Notes under the pieces: generated by a model
Database searches by the model: none
Seen by the model: only the letters and a program-made list of their open reading frames with translations
Told to the model about the DNA's origin: nothing
Made by a program: the position numbers and the translations under genes
In this document: positions 1 to 6,382 of the stretch, in pieces
Layout: every line of letters starts with the position of its first letter
Position numbering within the stretch: the stretch's first letter is position 1
DNA from: a bacterium
GTDB lineage: Bacteria; AUK180
Direction of reading: 5' to 3'
DNA: 8,246 nt
NCBI GenBank assembly: GCA_030622125.1
Contig: JAUXGM010000094.1
Coordinates: 1-8,246 of the forward strand

Positions 1-324
1 ATCGGTGAACTTGGCAGTGGAAAAACAGTTTTTGCAAAGGGTTTTTTTTCTGAATTAGGAATTTTAAAAAAAGATGTTACCTCACCATCATACATTATTG
101 TGAACGAATACAGAAAAGAAGAGCATTTATTTTACCACATTGATCTCTATAGATATAGAAATTTTGAGGATGATTTCGGCTTCTGGGAGATTATGGAAAA
201 GGGTGAAAAGATAGTGATAGAATGGGCTGATCGTCTTGGTGATGATGTTGATTGTCTTGATCTTTTGATCTTTTTTGAAATATCCGAAAATCAGCGGATC
301 ATAAAAATTACAAAAAAAACTTGA
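1..324 (+). CDS. tsaE: TsaE, tRNA threonylcarbamoyladenosine biosynthesis ATPase (5' partial)
   Basis: The window opens inside this gene; 107 codons and the TGA stop are present and roughly the first 25-30 residues are missing. Residues 2-9 of the visible part form a Walker A loop (GELGSGKT), where the TsaE family usually reads GxLGAGKT. They are followed by the family's SPS/T-hydrophobic-VNEY block (residues 29-37), H-x-DLYR (46-51) and IEWAD (73-77), all in the expected order and spacing. TsaE is a cytoplasmic P-loop ATPase that works with TsaB and TsaD to make the universal t6A modification at position 37 of ANN-decoding tRNAs. It has no functional link to the downstream genes that I know of. 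Its stop codon lies inside the -35 box of the promoter for the next gene. Identification is firm; only the start is unseen. Confidence 0.93.
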   Translation: MGELGSGKTVFAKGFFSELGILKKDVTSPSYIIVNEYRKEEHLFYHIDLYRYRNFEDDFGFWEIMEKGEKIVIEWADRLGDDVDCLDLLIFFEISENQRIIKITKKT

Positions 325-349
325 CAAATGAAAATAAAAAAAGTATAAT
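321..349 (+). promoter_or_regulatory. Consensus sigma-70 promoter for the peptidase-bactofilin unit
   Basis: TTGACA at 321-326 and TATAAT at 344-349 are separated by exactly 17 bp, so both hexamers and the spacer match the bacterial housekeeping consensus. The -35 box contains the stop codon of tsaE (322-324). Transcription would be expected to start about 7 bases past the -10 box, around 355-357, which is at the ATG of the peptidase gene. This is seen in the sequence; that it is active is inferred. Confidence 0.78.
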
Positions 350-356
350 ACAATAC

Positions 357-1259
357 ATGAGGCTTATCGAGAAAGAAGTACTTATTATACCGAAATCAAA
401 AGGAAACATAAGAAAGTTCAGATTTTCAAAAAGTATCCAGCTACTAATACTCATTATAATAGTTGGATTAGTGGGAGTAATTGGTTCCATTGGATATGAT
501 TATATTTCATTAAAAAAACAAATGACCGATTATATTGCGCTTATTGAAGAGAATCAGATTTTAAAAGGCGAAAATGAGAAAGTTTCAAGTGATCTACTTA
601 GAATTGCCAGAAAGTATGAAAAGGTTAAACTTTTTGAGGAAGAATTAAGTTCCCTTATCGGCATAAATCATGAGGTGCAAAACTCAAAGGGCGGTCCGGA
701 TTTTTATTCCCTTTACAATGATGAGCACAACACCGAAAGATTAAATGAAATTAGAAATGGTATTATAAATAATCTCAAGAGAGAACTTGCGGAAAAGGAA
801 GATAACTTTATTAAGATCAAGGATTTCATATATAAAAATAATTCACTTATCGCTGCTACACCATCTATATGGCCTGTTAAAGGATTTATTTCATCCGGTT
901 TTAAATGGCGAACAAATCCACTAACGGGAAAAAAAGAATTTCATAAAGGTATTGATATTGCGGGACCTATCGGTACATCAGTAAAATCAACTGCTGATGG
1001 AATAGTAACAAGGGCGGAAAATAACCCCTACGGATACGGTAATCTTATCGAGATAAAGCATGGATTTGGTTTTTCAACAAGGTATGGACATATGAATAGT
1101 TATAATGTAAAGTTAGGTCAAATCGTTAAAAGAGGTCAGATCATTGGAACGAGAGGAAGCACCGGAAGATCTACCGGACCTCATCTTCATTATGAGGTGA
1201 GAATAAGTAATAAACCTGTAAATCCTGTAAATTTCATATTAGATTACAACTTGGAGTAG
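357..1259 (+). CDS. Membrane-anchored M23 family metallopeptidase (peptidoglycan endopeptidase)
   Basis: This is a 300-residue protein with a short basic cytoplasmic tail (1-26), one membrane span (about 27-46), a charged probable coiled coil (about 51-103) and a C-terminal lysostaphin-type M23 domain (about 180-290). The zinc ligands are visible as H196-x3-D200 and the second His of HLH (H276/H278), with H245 in the RYGHM motif as the further conserved active-site His. M23 enzymes of this layout cut peptide crosslinks of peptidoglycan in the periplasm, and genes for them often sit beside bactofilin, as here. The tail contains an IIPKS-type segment followed by basic residues, like other bactofilin-linked M23 proteins. 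I chose ATG 357 because an in-frame TTG at 321 would lie inside the -35 box of the promoter. No Shine-Dalgarno site precedes 357, so the message is probably leaderless. The stop is 3 bp before the bactofilin ATG. Confidence 0.9.
   Translation: MRLIEKEVLIIPKSKGNIRKFRFSKSIQLLILIIIVGLVGVIGSIGYDYISLKKQMTDYIALIEENQILKGENEKVSSDLLRIARKYEKVKLFEEELSSLIGINHEVQNSKGGPDFYSLYNDEHNTERLNEIRNGIINNLKRELAEKEDNFIKIKDFIYKNNSLIAATPSIWPVKGFISSGFKWRTNPLTGKKEFHKGIDIAGPIGTSVKSTADGIVTRAENNPYGYGNLIEIKHGFGFSTRYGHMNSYNVKLGQIVKRGQIIGTRGSTGRSTGPHLHYEVRISNKPVNPVNFILDYNLE
1253..1256 (+). promoter_or_regulatory. Ribosome binding site of the bactofilin gene
   Basis: GGAG lies 6 bases before the ATG at 1263 and within the last codons of the peptidase gene, so the two genes are probably translationally coupled. 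It matters because the first gene of this unit has no such site. Confidence 0.6.
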
Positions 1260-2271: not shown

Positions 2272-5200
2272 ATGGTAAAGAAGTGCCCGGATTGTGGCTT
2301 TAAGAATCCTGATATTATGAAGTTTTGCGGTAATTGCGGCAATCCGTTCATAGAAAAAAAGAAGGTATCCGAATTAAGAGATATTGCTGTTCTATTTATT
2401 GATATGGTGGGATTTACATCGTTCAGTGAAGGTAAAGATCCTGAAGAGGTAAGTGAACTTTTAAATAAATATTGGAAGATCGTTTCAGAGATTGTCGAAA
2501 AATATGATTGTTATATTGATAAATATATTGGTGATGCTGTTTTGATTCTTTGTGGATTTCCGCATGGACACGAGAACGATTCCGAAAGAGCGATACTAAT
2601 TGCCCTTGAAATAATAAATGGAATGAGAGGACTCAATCTTCTCATAAAACAGAAAATTCAATTTCGATTCGGTATTCATTATGGAAATGTATTTGCAGGA
2701 GATGTTGGTGGTAATAGTTTTTCTGCAAAAACGGTAATTGGAGATGTTGTTAATACCGCAGAGCGGATACAAGAACTTGCTGATCCCGATACTATTTATG
2801 TTTCCTATGATATCTACGAATTTACAAATAAATTCTTTGATTTTCAAAAGGTCGGAAATAAACATTTAAAAGGTAAAGAAGAAGAGATTGGTATCTGCAA
2901 GGTTTTGGGAAGGAAAAATAAGAGGAAAAGTTTCAGGGGTATTGAAGGCTTGAATATTCCGATGGTGGGACGAGATGAAGAATTAAAATTATTAGTAGAT
3001 AAATTTTCCAATATTACTGCTTCAAAATCGATTGAGATCGGTTTAATAAGAGGTGGAGCCGGTATAGGTAAATCACGATTATCCGAGGAATTTCTTTCAA
3101 CAGTTAAACAAAAATATTCGGATAAGGTATCCATAATAAAGGGAAGATGTCTTCCTTACGGAGAAAGTTTTGTAAATTGGCCGATTATTCAATTAGTTAA
3201 AACAATATTAGGTATTGAAGACTCCGATACGGCATTTTTAATTAAAGGAAAAATTAAGTACTATTTAAGAACTCATTTTGGAGGTTTCAAGATAGAATTG
3301 ATTGATGCCGATAAGATTCTTGGGCTATTGTTGGGGGCGGAAGAGACAATTGATATTGAACCTGAAAAAATAAGAAACCAAACTATTTTAGTATTTATTG
3401 AACTGTTAAAAAAAGAGAGTTTAGATAAGTATTTAGTAGTTGTAATTGAAGATATTCATTGGATTGATTTCTCATCTATTGAGATATTAAGAGAAACCAT
3501 TAAAAGATTGGATAATGTTTCACTTTTGTTACTTCTTATAACAAGACCGGAATACAAAGAAAGTATAACCTGTAAAAATTTTTTAGAATCACTCACACAA
3601 GATAGAGAATTGTTGAATATAAAACTTGATAGATTGTCAAGAAACAATACAAGAAAAATGGTGGAACTTTTGTTGGAGATAGAGAAACTTCCAGATAAAT
3701 TAAAGGAACTTATTATTTCTCATAGTGAGGGGAATCCTTTTTTTACGGAGGAAATAATAAAATCGCTCATTGATAGAGAAATATTAGTATCAAAAGGAGA
3801 TAGTTGGCATGCTGTACGGGAAATAACAGATATCGATATACCAAAAACAGTAACATCGGTTATTCAAGCAAGGGTTGATACATTATCGGAAGATGAAAAA
3901 CAAATCTTACAAACTGCCTCTGTTATCGGTAAGACATTTTGGAAAAAAATATTGGATAGCATCATACCGAATATAAAAACGGCTCAATTCCAGGGTCTAT
4001 TGGATAGAGGACTTATAAAAAATATTATTTCAATGGCAGAGAATGAATTGCAGTATAAATTTAAGCATATTCTTATTCAAGAAGTGGTTTATCGTTCCAT
4101 AGTTAAAAAAATTAAAAGAGAATTACACCTAAGGATTGCCGGTTGGATTGAGAATAGTTATTCCGATAATCTTGAAGGGTACTATGATCTACTTGCAATC
4201 CATTATAATAAAGGTGGAAATGAGGAAAAAGCTATAGAGTATATCTATCTTGCAGGTGAAAAAGCAAAAAAGAATTACGCAAATTCTGAAGCATTGGCTC
4301 TTCTTGAAAATGTTGTAAGAAAAACCAAATTAAGCCCGGAATTTAATGATTATAGAAAAAAAGCAAAAAAATCTATTGCGAATATTTATTCAACTCTTGG
4401 AAAAAATGAGAAAGCAATAGAAGACTATCAAGAGGCACTCAATTTAACTAAGGATGAAAGAGAGAATAAAGAGATCCGTATTTCAATAGGGGAAGTCTAT
4501 CAGAGAATGAGTGATTATAATCACGCACTTAAGATATTTAATGATGTGTTAAGTGAATTGTCCTCTCAACGGTTTGATGAATGGCAATCTGTTATGACTT
4601 CAATTGCATGGATAAAATACTTACAGGGTGATATCAAAAAAATGGGCAAGATCATTGCCGATATCAATGAAAAATTACTAAAAAAAGATGTACCGAAGAA
4701 GGAATATGAAAAATATGTTACTCGTTTAAATAATCTGTATGGTATATATCACAGTAATAAAGGAGATTGGAAAAAATCCATAGAATATTATAAGAAAAAT
4801 ATTGAAATTTATGAAAGGCAAAATGATCTTGGCGGTGTGTCAACAACATACAATAACATAGCCGAAAATTATTCCCAAATAGGTGATTTTAAAAAATGTA
4901 TTGGCTATTATGAAAAAAGTTTAAATATAGCAGAAAAAACCGGAGAAATGTTGGGACAGGCAATTCCTCTTTACAATCTTGGTGAAACTTATTTAGGATT
5001 AAATGCACTTGAAAAAGCAGAGGAATACCTGAACAAATATATGATAATAAACCGTCAAATAGATAATCATCTTGGTATCGGTTATGGCTCTGCCGGATTA
5101 GGAAGTGTTTATCTTAGAAGAAAAAATTACCCAAAAGCAATGGAGTATTTTAATAATTCGTATCAAATGTTTGATAAGCTGGGGAGTAGATCACTTAAAC

Positions 5201-5586
5201 TTTATGCTTTTTCAAAGATCATAAAAGGGCTCATAATACAAGGACAACTTGATGAAGCAAGAGAAAAATTCAGCATTTTTAAGCAAGAAACAAATGATGA
5301 TAAAGATGAAACTCTGCTTTATTTTAATGGTTTATTAGAAGGTGAATCCGGTAATTATATAAAAGCAGTTGAAATATTAGATAATATCATTAAATCATAT
5401 AAGGAATCCGGCAATATTGAAGAAATACCAAATATATTGCTGTATAAAATTAAATATGAAAAATTAAATAATGACCGGACAGCAGTTAAAAAAACAAAAG
5501 CAAAAATGGAAGAATTACTTAATAAATTAAAGATCGGTATTCCGGATGAATTTGTCGCCGATTATCTTGAATATTATAAAAATTGA
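2272..5586 (+). CDS. Zinc ribbon - class III adenylate cyclase - AAA/STAND ATPase - TPR signalling protein
   Basis: This 1104-residue protein has four parts. Residues 5-22 are a zinc ribbon (C5-x2-C8, C19-x2-C22). Residues about 36-210 are a class III nucleotide cyclase domain with metal-binding D44 and D88, the lysine of the adenine pocket (K84 in DKYIGD), a Thr at the second substrate position (T154 in KTVIGD), and transition-state N161 and R165. The Lys/Thr pair is that of class IIIb adenylate cyclases, the group that includes bicarbonate-responsive enzymes. Residues about 230-640 are an AAA_16-type ATPase: VGRDEE (232-237), Walker A GGAGIGKS (261-268), Walker B ending in ED (393-394), then EGNPFF (486-491) and FKH (597-599), both typical of cyclase-linked ATPases. 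Residues about 690-1090 hold some eight TPR-like repeats. The order resembles mammalian soluble adenylate cyclase but with one cyclase domain, so it would need to dimerise. No membrane span is seen, so it is likely cytoplasmic. ATP to cAMP is the expected reaction; the trigger is unknown. Confidence 0.93.
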   Translation: MVKKCPDCGFKNPDIMKFCGNCGNPFIEKKKVSELRDIAVLFIDMVGFTSFSEGKDPEEVSELLNKYWKIVSEIVEKYDCYIDKYIGDAVLILCGFPHGHENDSERAILIALEIINGMRGLNLLIKQKIQFRFGIHYGNVFAGDVGGNSFSAKTVIGDVVNTAERIQELADPDTIYVSYDIYEFTNKFFDFQKVGNKHLKGKEEEIGICKVLGRKNKRKSFRGIEGLNIPMVGRDEELKLLVDKFSNITASKSIEIGLIRGGAGIGKSRLSEEFLSTVKQKYSDKVSIIKGRCLPYGESFVNWPIIQLVKTILGIEDSDTAFLIKGKIKYYLRTHFGGFKIELIDADKILGLLLGAEETIDIEPEKIRNQTILVFIELLKKESLDKYLVVVIEDIHWIDFSSIEILRETIKRLDNVSLLLLLITRPEYKESITCKNFLESLTQDRELLNIKLDRLSRNNTRKMVELLLEIEKLPDKLKELIISHSEGNPFFTEEIIKSLIDREILVSKGDSWHAVREITDIDIPKTVTSVIQARVDTLSEDEKQILQTASVIGKTFWKKILDSIIPNIKTAQFQGLLDRGLIKNIISMAENELQYKFKHILIQEVVYRSIVKKIKRELHLRIAGWIENSYSDNLEGYYDLLAIHYNKGGNEEKAIEYIYLAGEKAKKNYANSEALALLENVVRKTKLSPEFNDYRKKAKKSIANIYSTLGKNEKAIEDYQEALNLTKDERENKEIRISIGEVYQRMSDYNHALKIFNDVLSELSSQRFDEWQSVMTSIAWIKYLQGDIKKMGKIIADINEKLLKKDVPKKEYEKYVTRLNNLYGIYHSNKGDWKKSIEYYKKNIEIYERQNDLGGVSTTYNNIAENYSQIGDFKKCIGYYEKSLNIAEKTGEMLGQAIPLYNLGETYLGLNALEKAEEYLNKYMIINRQIDNHLGIGYGSAGLGSVYLRRKNYPKAMEYFNNSYQMFDKLGSRSLKLYAFSKIIKGLIIQGQLDEAREKFSIFKQETNDDKDETLLYFNGLLEGESGNYIKAVEILDNIIKSYKESGNIEEIPNILLYKIKYEKLNNDRTAVKKTKAKMEELLNKLKIGIPDEFVADYLEYYKN

Positions 5587-5593
5587 AATATGT

Positions 5594-5599
5594 AAGGAG
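5594..5599 (+). promoter_or_regulatory. Shine-Dalgarno site that fixes the lipoprotein start
   Basis: AAGGAG ends 6 bases before ATG 5606 and follows the cyclase stop codon by 7 bases. It selects this ATG over an in-frame ATG at 5546 that lies inside the cyclase gene and would bury the signal peptide. Confidence 0.85.
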
Positions 5600-5605
5600 T
5601 ATAAA

Positions 5606-6382
5606 ATGAAAACAAGCATTAAAATGTTTTTCATTTTGATTATGATTTTATTAGTTATAACATCTTGCACTAATAACAAAGAAAAAGTAGTTAAAAATGA
5701 GAAAATAGTAGGTATTCAAGATGTCCTGGGATTTTGGGATACTGTTTCCGAATATGATGCAGAGAATATTGAATTTCAAAAAGAAGATGGTGGGAATTTA
5801 ATCTATTATTCATATTTGAATTCAAGACCATATAGTAGTGGCAAATGGTCTTTTAAAAATGGAACTTTGAAATTGGAATCGGAATCGGGAGATATTTTCA
5901 CTTATATAAGGGTTGAGATTGAAGGAGATTTATTGAAAATTACAGATTCAAATGGAAATGTATCTGTTTTTAAAAGACCACCTAAGAAAATTTTAGAAAA
6001 AGATGAGATCTTAATTAATTTAAAGGTATATCTAAATAAAATTTCAGCATTTACAGGACTTGACAATAGTGAGCCAATAAAGACAGAATTTAATTGGAAT
6101 TTTAAAGGGGGAAAAACAATAGAAGTTTCCGGATTATCAACAAAATGTCCCTTAAAAGAGATCGCAAAAGATGATTTTCAATCTATGAATGAAAAAGTAA
6201 AAGATATCGGAGATTACTTATCCGGGTTGGAATTTTCTCAAAATGTGTTTAATACTACCGAAATTCAATCTGCTTATTCGGGTGATTCTTATGTTTTTAC
6301 CATTACCATTGATACGAAAAGTCAAACAAATTCCATAATTATTAAAGTAGGAAAATTAAAACAGTTGAGAGTTGAGAATTGA
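5606..6382 (+). CDS. Predicted lipoprotein of unknown function
   Basis: The product is 258 residues. Residues 1-21 form a lipoprotein signal peptide: basic MKTSIK, a hydrophobic core, and a lipobox ITSC with the lipidated C21. A polar linker follows. Residues about 40-125 look like a small beta-rich domain: GFWDT at 42-46, then short strands and turns ending in a phenylalanine and prolines. This is reminiscent of lipocalin-like domains in bacterial lipoproteins, but the resemblance is weak. The rest (about 130-258) is a second, unrecognised domain. The protein should be anchored to a membrane on the periplasmic side. It lies 19 bp after the cyclase gene with its own strong ribosome binding site and no visible promoter, so it is probably the last gene of that operon. 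The last five residues (LRVEN) are encoded by a heptanucleotide repeat that also supplies the stop codon. I do not recognise a family. Confidence 0.82.
   Translation: MKTSIKMFFILIMILLVITSCTNNKEKVVKNEKIVGIQDVLGFWDTVSEYDAENIEFQKEDGGNLIYYSYLNSRPYSSGKWSFKNGTLKLESESGDIFTYIRVEIEGDLLKITDSNGNVSVFKRPPKKILEKDEILINLKVYLNKISAFTGLDNSEPIKTEFNWNFKGGKTIEVSGLSTKCPLKEIAKDDFQSMNEKVKDIGDYLSGLEFSQNVFNTTEIQSAYSGDSYVFTITIDTKSQTNSIIIKVGKLKQLRVEN

Follow-up and report, generated by a model that had tools for sequence, protein, structure and literature searches.

A consensus housekeeping promoter directly before an M23 peptidase gene and a predicted class of conserved leaderless genes in one bacterial family

The peptidase-bactofilin locus

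The analysed window, a stretch of 8,246 nucleotides that makes up an entire contig (C79), opens with the 3' part of tsaE (positions 1-324, forward strand; Pfam TsaE PF02367, E = 3.6e-23), the 5' end of which is cut by the contig end. On the same strand follow a gene for an LmdC-like M23 family metallopeptidase of 300 aa (357-1259; Pfam PF01551, E = 2e-35), whose start at ATG 357 was assigned by comparison with relatives, and a bactofilin gene (1263-1619; Pfam PF04519, E = 1.5e-26), the second gene of a presumed operon. The Shine-Dalgarno (SD) motif of the latter, GGAG (forward strand, 1253-1256), falls within the 3' end of the peptidase gene. A gap of 3 nt between the two genes suggests that they are co-transcribed. 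Further downstream, positions 2272-5586 encode a protein of 1104 aa with a zinc ribbon, a class III adenylate/guanylate cyclase domain, an AAA ATPase domain and TPR repeats. The end of this gene is overlapped by an ORF (5546-6382) whose product looks like a lipoprotein, and for which the ATG at 5606 (MKTSIKMFFILIMILLVITSC) is the probable real start.

The peptidase gene is preceded by a -35 box TTGACA (321-326) and a -10 box TATAAT (344-349), both of exact consensus, on the forward strand and separated by a spacer of 17 nt. An A-rich stretch before the -35 box (311-320, forward strand), which is conserved in relatives, is a possible UP element. The tsaE gene ends in ...AAA ACT TGA, with its stop codon (TGA, 322-324) inside the -35 box, and only 7 nt (ACAATAC, 350-356) lie between the -10 box and the ATG at 357-359. 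The region preceding this ATG is A/T-rich, no SD-like motif occurs in the 18 nt upstream of it, and no terminator was found between tsaE and the peptidase gene. An earlier note on this DNA had described the exact 17-bp spacing, the tsaE stop within the -35 box, the ATG 7 bp past the -10 box and the missing SD site, and each of these points was confirmed. Transcription from sigma-70 promoters starts at a purine 6-9 nt after the -10 box, which would place the first nucleotide at A355 (leader of 2 nt) or A357 (leader of 0 nt) on the forward strand; the expectation that the transcript starts at the ATG or no more than two bases from it is thus a fair prediction.

The peptidase has a short cytoplasmic N-terminus, a membrane helix (by inspection, a hydrophobic segment at about residues 26-49) and an M23 domain, the metal ligands of which (H-x3-D and H-x-H) are invariant in the alignment with relatives. 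M23 peptidase-bactofilin pairs are widespread, and LmdC of Hyphomonas and Rhodospirillum binds bactofilin through its cytoplasmic N-terminus, which has a beta-hairpin (PMC10945521). The LmdC-BacA operons of that study likewise have a gene for a bitopic M23 peptidase beside a bactofilin gene, the peptidase having a short cytoplasmic N-terminus ahead of its membrane helix. Judged by its M23 domain, adjacent bactofilin and bitopic N-terminus, the pair encoded at 357-1619 is LmdC-BacA-like. By analogy, the hairpin that binds bactofilin may correspond to the conserved LIIPKSKGNIRK segment, which precedes the membrane helix, and the conserved EKEVLIIPKSKGNIRK that immediately follows ATG 357 may be the counterpart of the bactofilin-binding N-terminus of LmdC. 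The passages of the LmdC study considered here make no mention of a leaderless layout, and the protein interaction, described there for LmdC, is a prediction in the present pair (PMC10945521).

Promoter and start codon in related genomes

The peptidase was found in four relatives (G001-G004) of the same family, which represent three other genera (65-67% protein identity). All four carry TTGACA (TTGACT in G002), then 17 nt, then a -10-like box (TATAAT, TAAAAT, TAGAAT or, in G002, TTTAAT), which ends exactly 8 nt before the ATG in every case. The block from -50 to -31 relative to the start has a mean identity of 74% among four genera, whereas the flank from -100 to -51 shows 26%, which is the background level, and is unalignable. 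The tsaE gene adjoins the peptidase gene only in the present genome (G000) and in G003, and its reading frame crosses the promoter differently in these two; in G002 and G004 it is located on contigs other than that of the peptidase. In G001 (L033) tsaE and the peptidase promoter lie about 1 kb apart. Since the promoter and its spacing are retained where tsaE is not adjacent, the promoter can be assigned to the peptidase gene; judged from these comparisons, its overlap with tsaE is incidental. The earlier note had presented the promoter as fused to the end of tsaE; the overlap is real, and the note's reading is adjusted in this one respect. Functional coupling to tsaE was rejected on the same grounds: tsaE lies elsewhere in two relatives and about 1 kb away in another, and its frame crosses the promoter differently in G000 and G003.

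Promoter-like sites as a whole are no more frequent in the window than expected (45 found versus 42.3), so its weaker matches carry no meaning, and the A/T-rich exact consensus might likewise be a chance match without function. This possibility was rejected as extremely improbable, because 321-349 is the sole site in the window agreeing at 12/12 positions (exact pattern: 1 found versus 0.02 expected from shuffling), because the promoter is kept in four relatives, and because perfect TTGACA-N15..19-TATAAT sites number 58 in the genome (2.08 Mb, 192 contigs searched) as against 2 for a reversed-pattern control. The earlier note had expected an automated caller to pick TTG 321 as the start. This codon shares the reading frame of ATG 357 and would be chosen under a longest-ORF rule, giving a protein of 312 aa from a transcript that starts upstream, but it is part of the -35 box and is not preceded by an SD motif. 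The conserved part of the protein begins with the residue encoded by ATG 357; the search for conserved peptide sequence upstream of residue 1 in homologues, by which the note had proposed that its reading could be overturned, revealed none. In G002 and G003 a stop codon lies four and two codons before the ATG, respectively, and in G001 and G004 the TGA within TTGACA serves as the upstream stop, at a distance of eleven to twelve codons from the ATG. As none of the codons that separate this ATG from its closest upstream stop is an ATG, GTG or TTG in any of the four, it is their first usable start; none has a counterpart of TTG 321, and the 12 extra residues are accordingly without equivalent in the relatives. 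A further argument comes from mycobacteria, in which a 5'-terminal ATG or GTG is necessary and sufficient for leaderless translation and TTG initiates poorly (PMC4633059). We therefore rejected TTG 321 and see next to no chance that it serves as the start. The start at ATG 357 places the putative bactofilin-binding segment at the very N-terminus, whereas the TTG start would add 12 spurious residues.

A class of leaderless-type genes in the family

Many of the 58 perfect sites precede SD-led genes or tRNA-like sequences. The pattern therefore looks like the main promoter type of the organism, and the 17-bp spacing together with its genome-wide use points to the sigma-70/SigA type. At about seven of the 58 sites an ATG follows TATAAT by 5-7 nt and opens a long frame with no better SD-led start; these genes encode NrdR, RadA, a FabK-like protein, the M23 peptidase and three other proteins. 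At one locus (L005, 83-145) two perfect promoters stand back to back on opposite strands, a few bases apart, one driving the leaderless-type nrdR and the other facing the near contig end.

The frequency of this layout was determined for ORFs of at least 100 aa in sampled stretches of three family members (G000, G003 and G004; about 325, 312 and 394 kb), from the distance between the promoter end and the first ATG. A promoter was accepted if the -10 box had at least 5/6 matches, A2 and T6 among them, the -35 box had at least 4/6, and the spacer measured 16-18 nt. Promoters ending 5-8 nt before the first ATG were found for 15/264, 16/268 and 14/342 genes, compared with 6/634, 0/631 and 2/837 internal ATGs (p = 7e-5, 3e-9 and 2e-6). 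When pooled, the counts are 45 of 874 genes versus 8 of 2102 internal ATGs (p = 3e-17); the resulting share of about 5% is an estimate, since the first ATG of an ORF is sometimes not the true start. The spacing is bimodal, with a mode of 5 nt within the class, few genes at 9-12 nt (6, 2 and 3) and a second, broad population that begins at about 14 nt. The peptidase gene, whose ATG was confirmed by comparison and lies 7 nt from the -10 box, falls within the class range of about 5-8 nt.

None of the 45 class genes is preceded by an SD-like motif, in contrast to 44-47% of all starts (12-15% of internal ATGs). The 3' end of the 16S rRNA reads CACCTCCTTA, with an intact anti-SD, and by these signals much of the remaining genome uses normal SD initiation. 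At L163 (about 3050-3065) the 16S 3' end reads GGGTCACCTCCTTA where GGATCACCTCCTTA is usual, the anti-SD itself being intact.

Orthologues of eight class genes of the present genome were read in G001-G004, and the layout is kept in 21 of 29 (versus a background of 5%). It was retained for the peptidase, RadA, HutI and a WecA-like protein (4/4 each) and for NrdR (3/3), in half of the cases for a PII-like protein (2/4), and it was lost for the FabK-like protein and DsbD (0/3 each). In reading this count it should be borne in mind that G001 and G004 belong to one genus and are not independent, that NrdR, the WecA-like and the PII-like protein were picked after their G003 copies had been seen (18/26 without those three cells), and that the G002 peptidase copy, whose -10 box TTTAAT falls below the strict filter, was counted by eye. 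The -10 box of the PII-like gene ends 16 nt before the ATG in G001 and G004 (L189 and L190), as compared with 5 nt, an apparent switch between the leaderless and a short-leader layout within the family. One query, the L076 protein, had no orthologue in the relatives.

Extension of the class to a sister family (G005) was dropped: in this small sample there was no significant excess (2/113, p = 0.38) and the orthologues were without the leaderless layout. Nor was a significant class detected in the small samples taken from parts of four more distant genomes.

Proposed expression of the operon and its wider context

Taken together, these results make it very probable that a strong SigA-type promoter drives a leaderless peptidase gene, the first of a peptidase-bactofilin operon and a member of the conserved class of about 5%. 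With transcription starting at A357 or A355 from the promoter at 321-349, a strong one of the housekeeping (sigma-70/SigA) type, the mRNA would begin with the peptidase ATG or two bases before it. The peptidase would be translated by leaderless initiation, the ribosome recognising the 5'-terminal AUG, and the downstream bactofilin gene would be initiated from its ordinary SD site at 1253-1256, one mRNA thus combining a leaderless and an SD-led gene. We infer the 5' end, ribosomal initiation there and the operon structure from the arrangement of these signals. The spacing of 7 nt here, and of 8 nt in the relatives, lies at the upper edge of the class, which makes a 2-nt leader just as probable as none; in mycobacteria the leaderless start codon is required at the very 5' end (PMC4633059).

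Alternatively, the promoter might be real and the peptidase be made mainly from tsaE read-through or short-leader transcripts, on which ribosomes would initiate without an SD at an unstructured, A/U-rich site and not by the truly leaderless route. The A/T-rich sequence before the ATG and the position of tsaE directly upstream in G000 and G003 are in line with this, and since no terminator separates tsaE from the peptidase gene, long-leader read-through transcripts may exist as well. We nevertheless regard it as unlikely to be the main route, because relatives in which tsaE is not a neighbour still keep the promoter at its distance from the ATG, and because the family-wide peak at 5-8 nt, as opposed to 9-12 nt, is left unexplained by read-through.

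Across bacteria, a -10 box situated about 10 bp before the start is a known mark of leaderless genes, and the TA-led genes of Zheng et al. 2011, with a -10-like signal at that distance and as a minority class beside SD-led genes, resemble the present class (PMC3160421). The latter adds a consensus-like -35 box and amounts to about 5% by a strict criterion; that survey covered 953 genomes of known groups (PMC3160421), whereas the present lineage belongs to a taxonomic class with only two sampled families. No closer relative of this lineage was present among the genomes searched. In Deinococcus-Thermus, in which the -10 box has been examined experimentally as a promoter of leaderless mRNAs, it also lies mostly 6-7 bp before the ORF, but nearly a third of the genes are concerned and the motif is a degenerate TANNNT, in contrast to about 5% and near-consensus -35/-10 pairs here (PMC12340547). 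Mycobacterial leaderless genes likewise have the start codon at the transcription start, and about 73% of them stay leaderless between two species, which is comparable with the 21/29 observed here; they were mapped by RNA-seq and ribosome profiling, while the present ones were predicted from sequence (PMC4633059). A literature search for work on such genes in candidate phyla or metagenome-assembled genomes found nothing, which is weak evidence.

The phenomenon is known, and what is new is the place: an apparently uncultured family in which about one gene in twenty belongs to a conserved class with predicted leaders of 0 to 2 nt. Leaderless expression is thereby extended to a new lineage, for which the conserved genes form a testable list. 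Gene callers that seek SD motifs may repeat the start error across the class. In a more far-reaching reading, which we consider rather unlikely, the family would keep a defined leaderless set (RadA, NrdR, HutI, the WecA-like protein and the M23 peptidase) under selection, as an initiation route separate from that of the SD-led neighbours. If so, the products of this set could, for example, still be made under limited SD initiation, and the peptidase-bactofilin operon would unite both routes of initiation on one mRNA.
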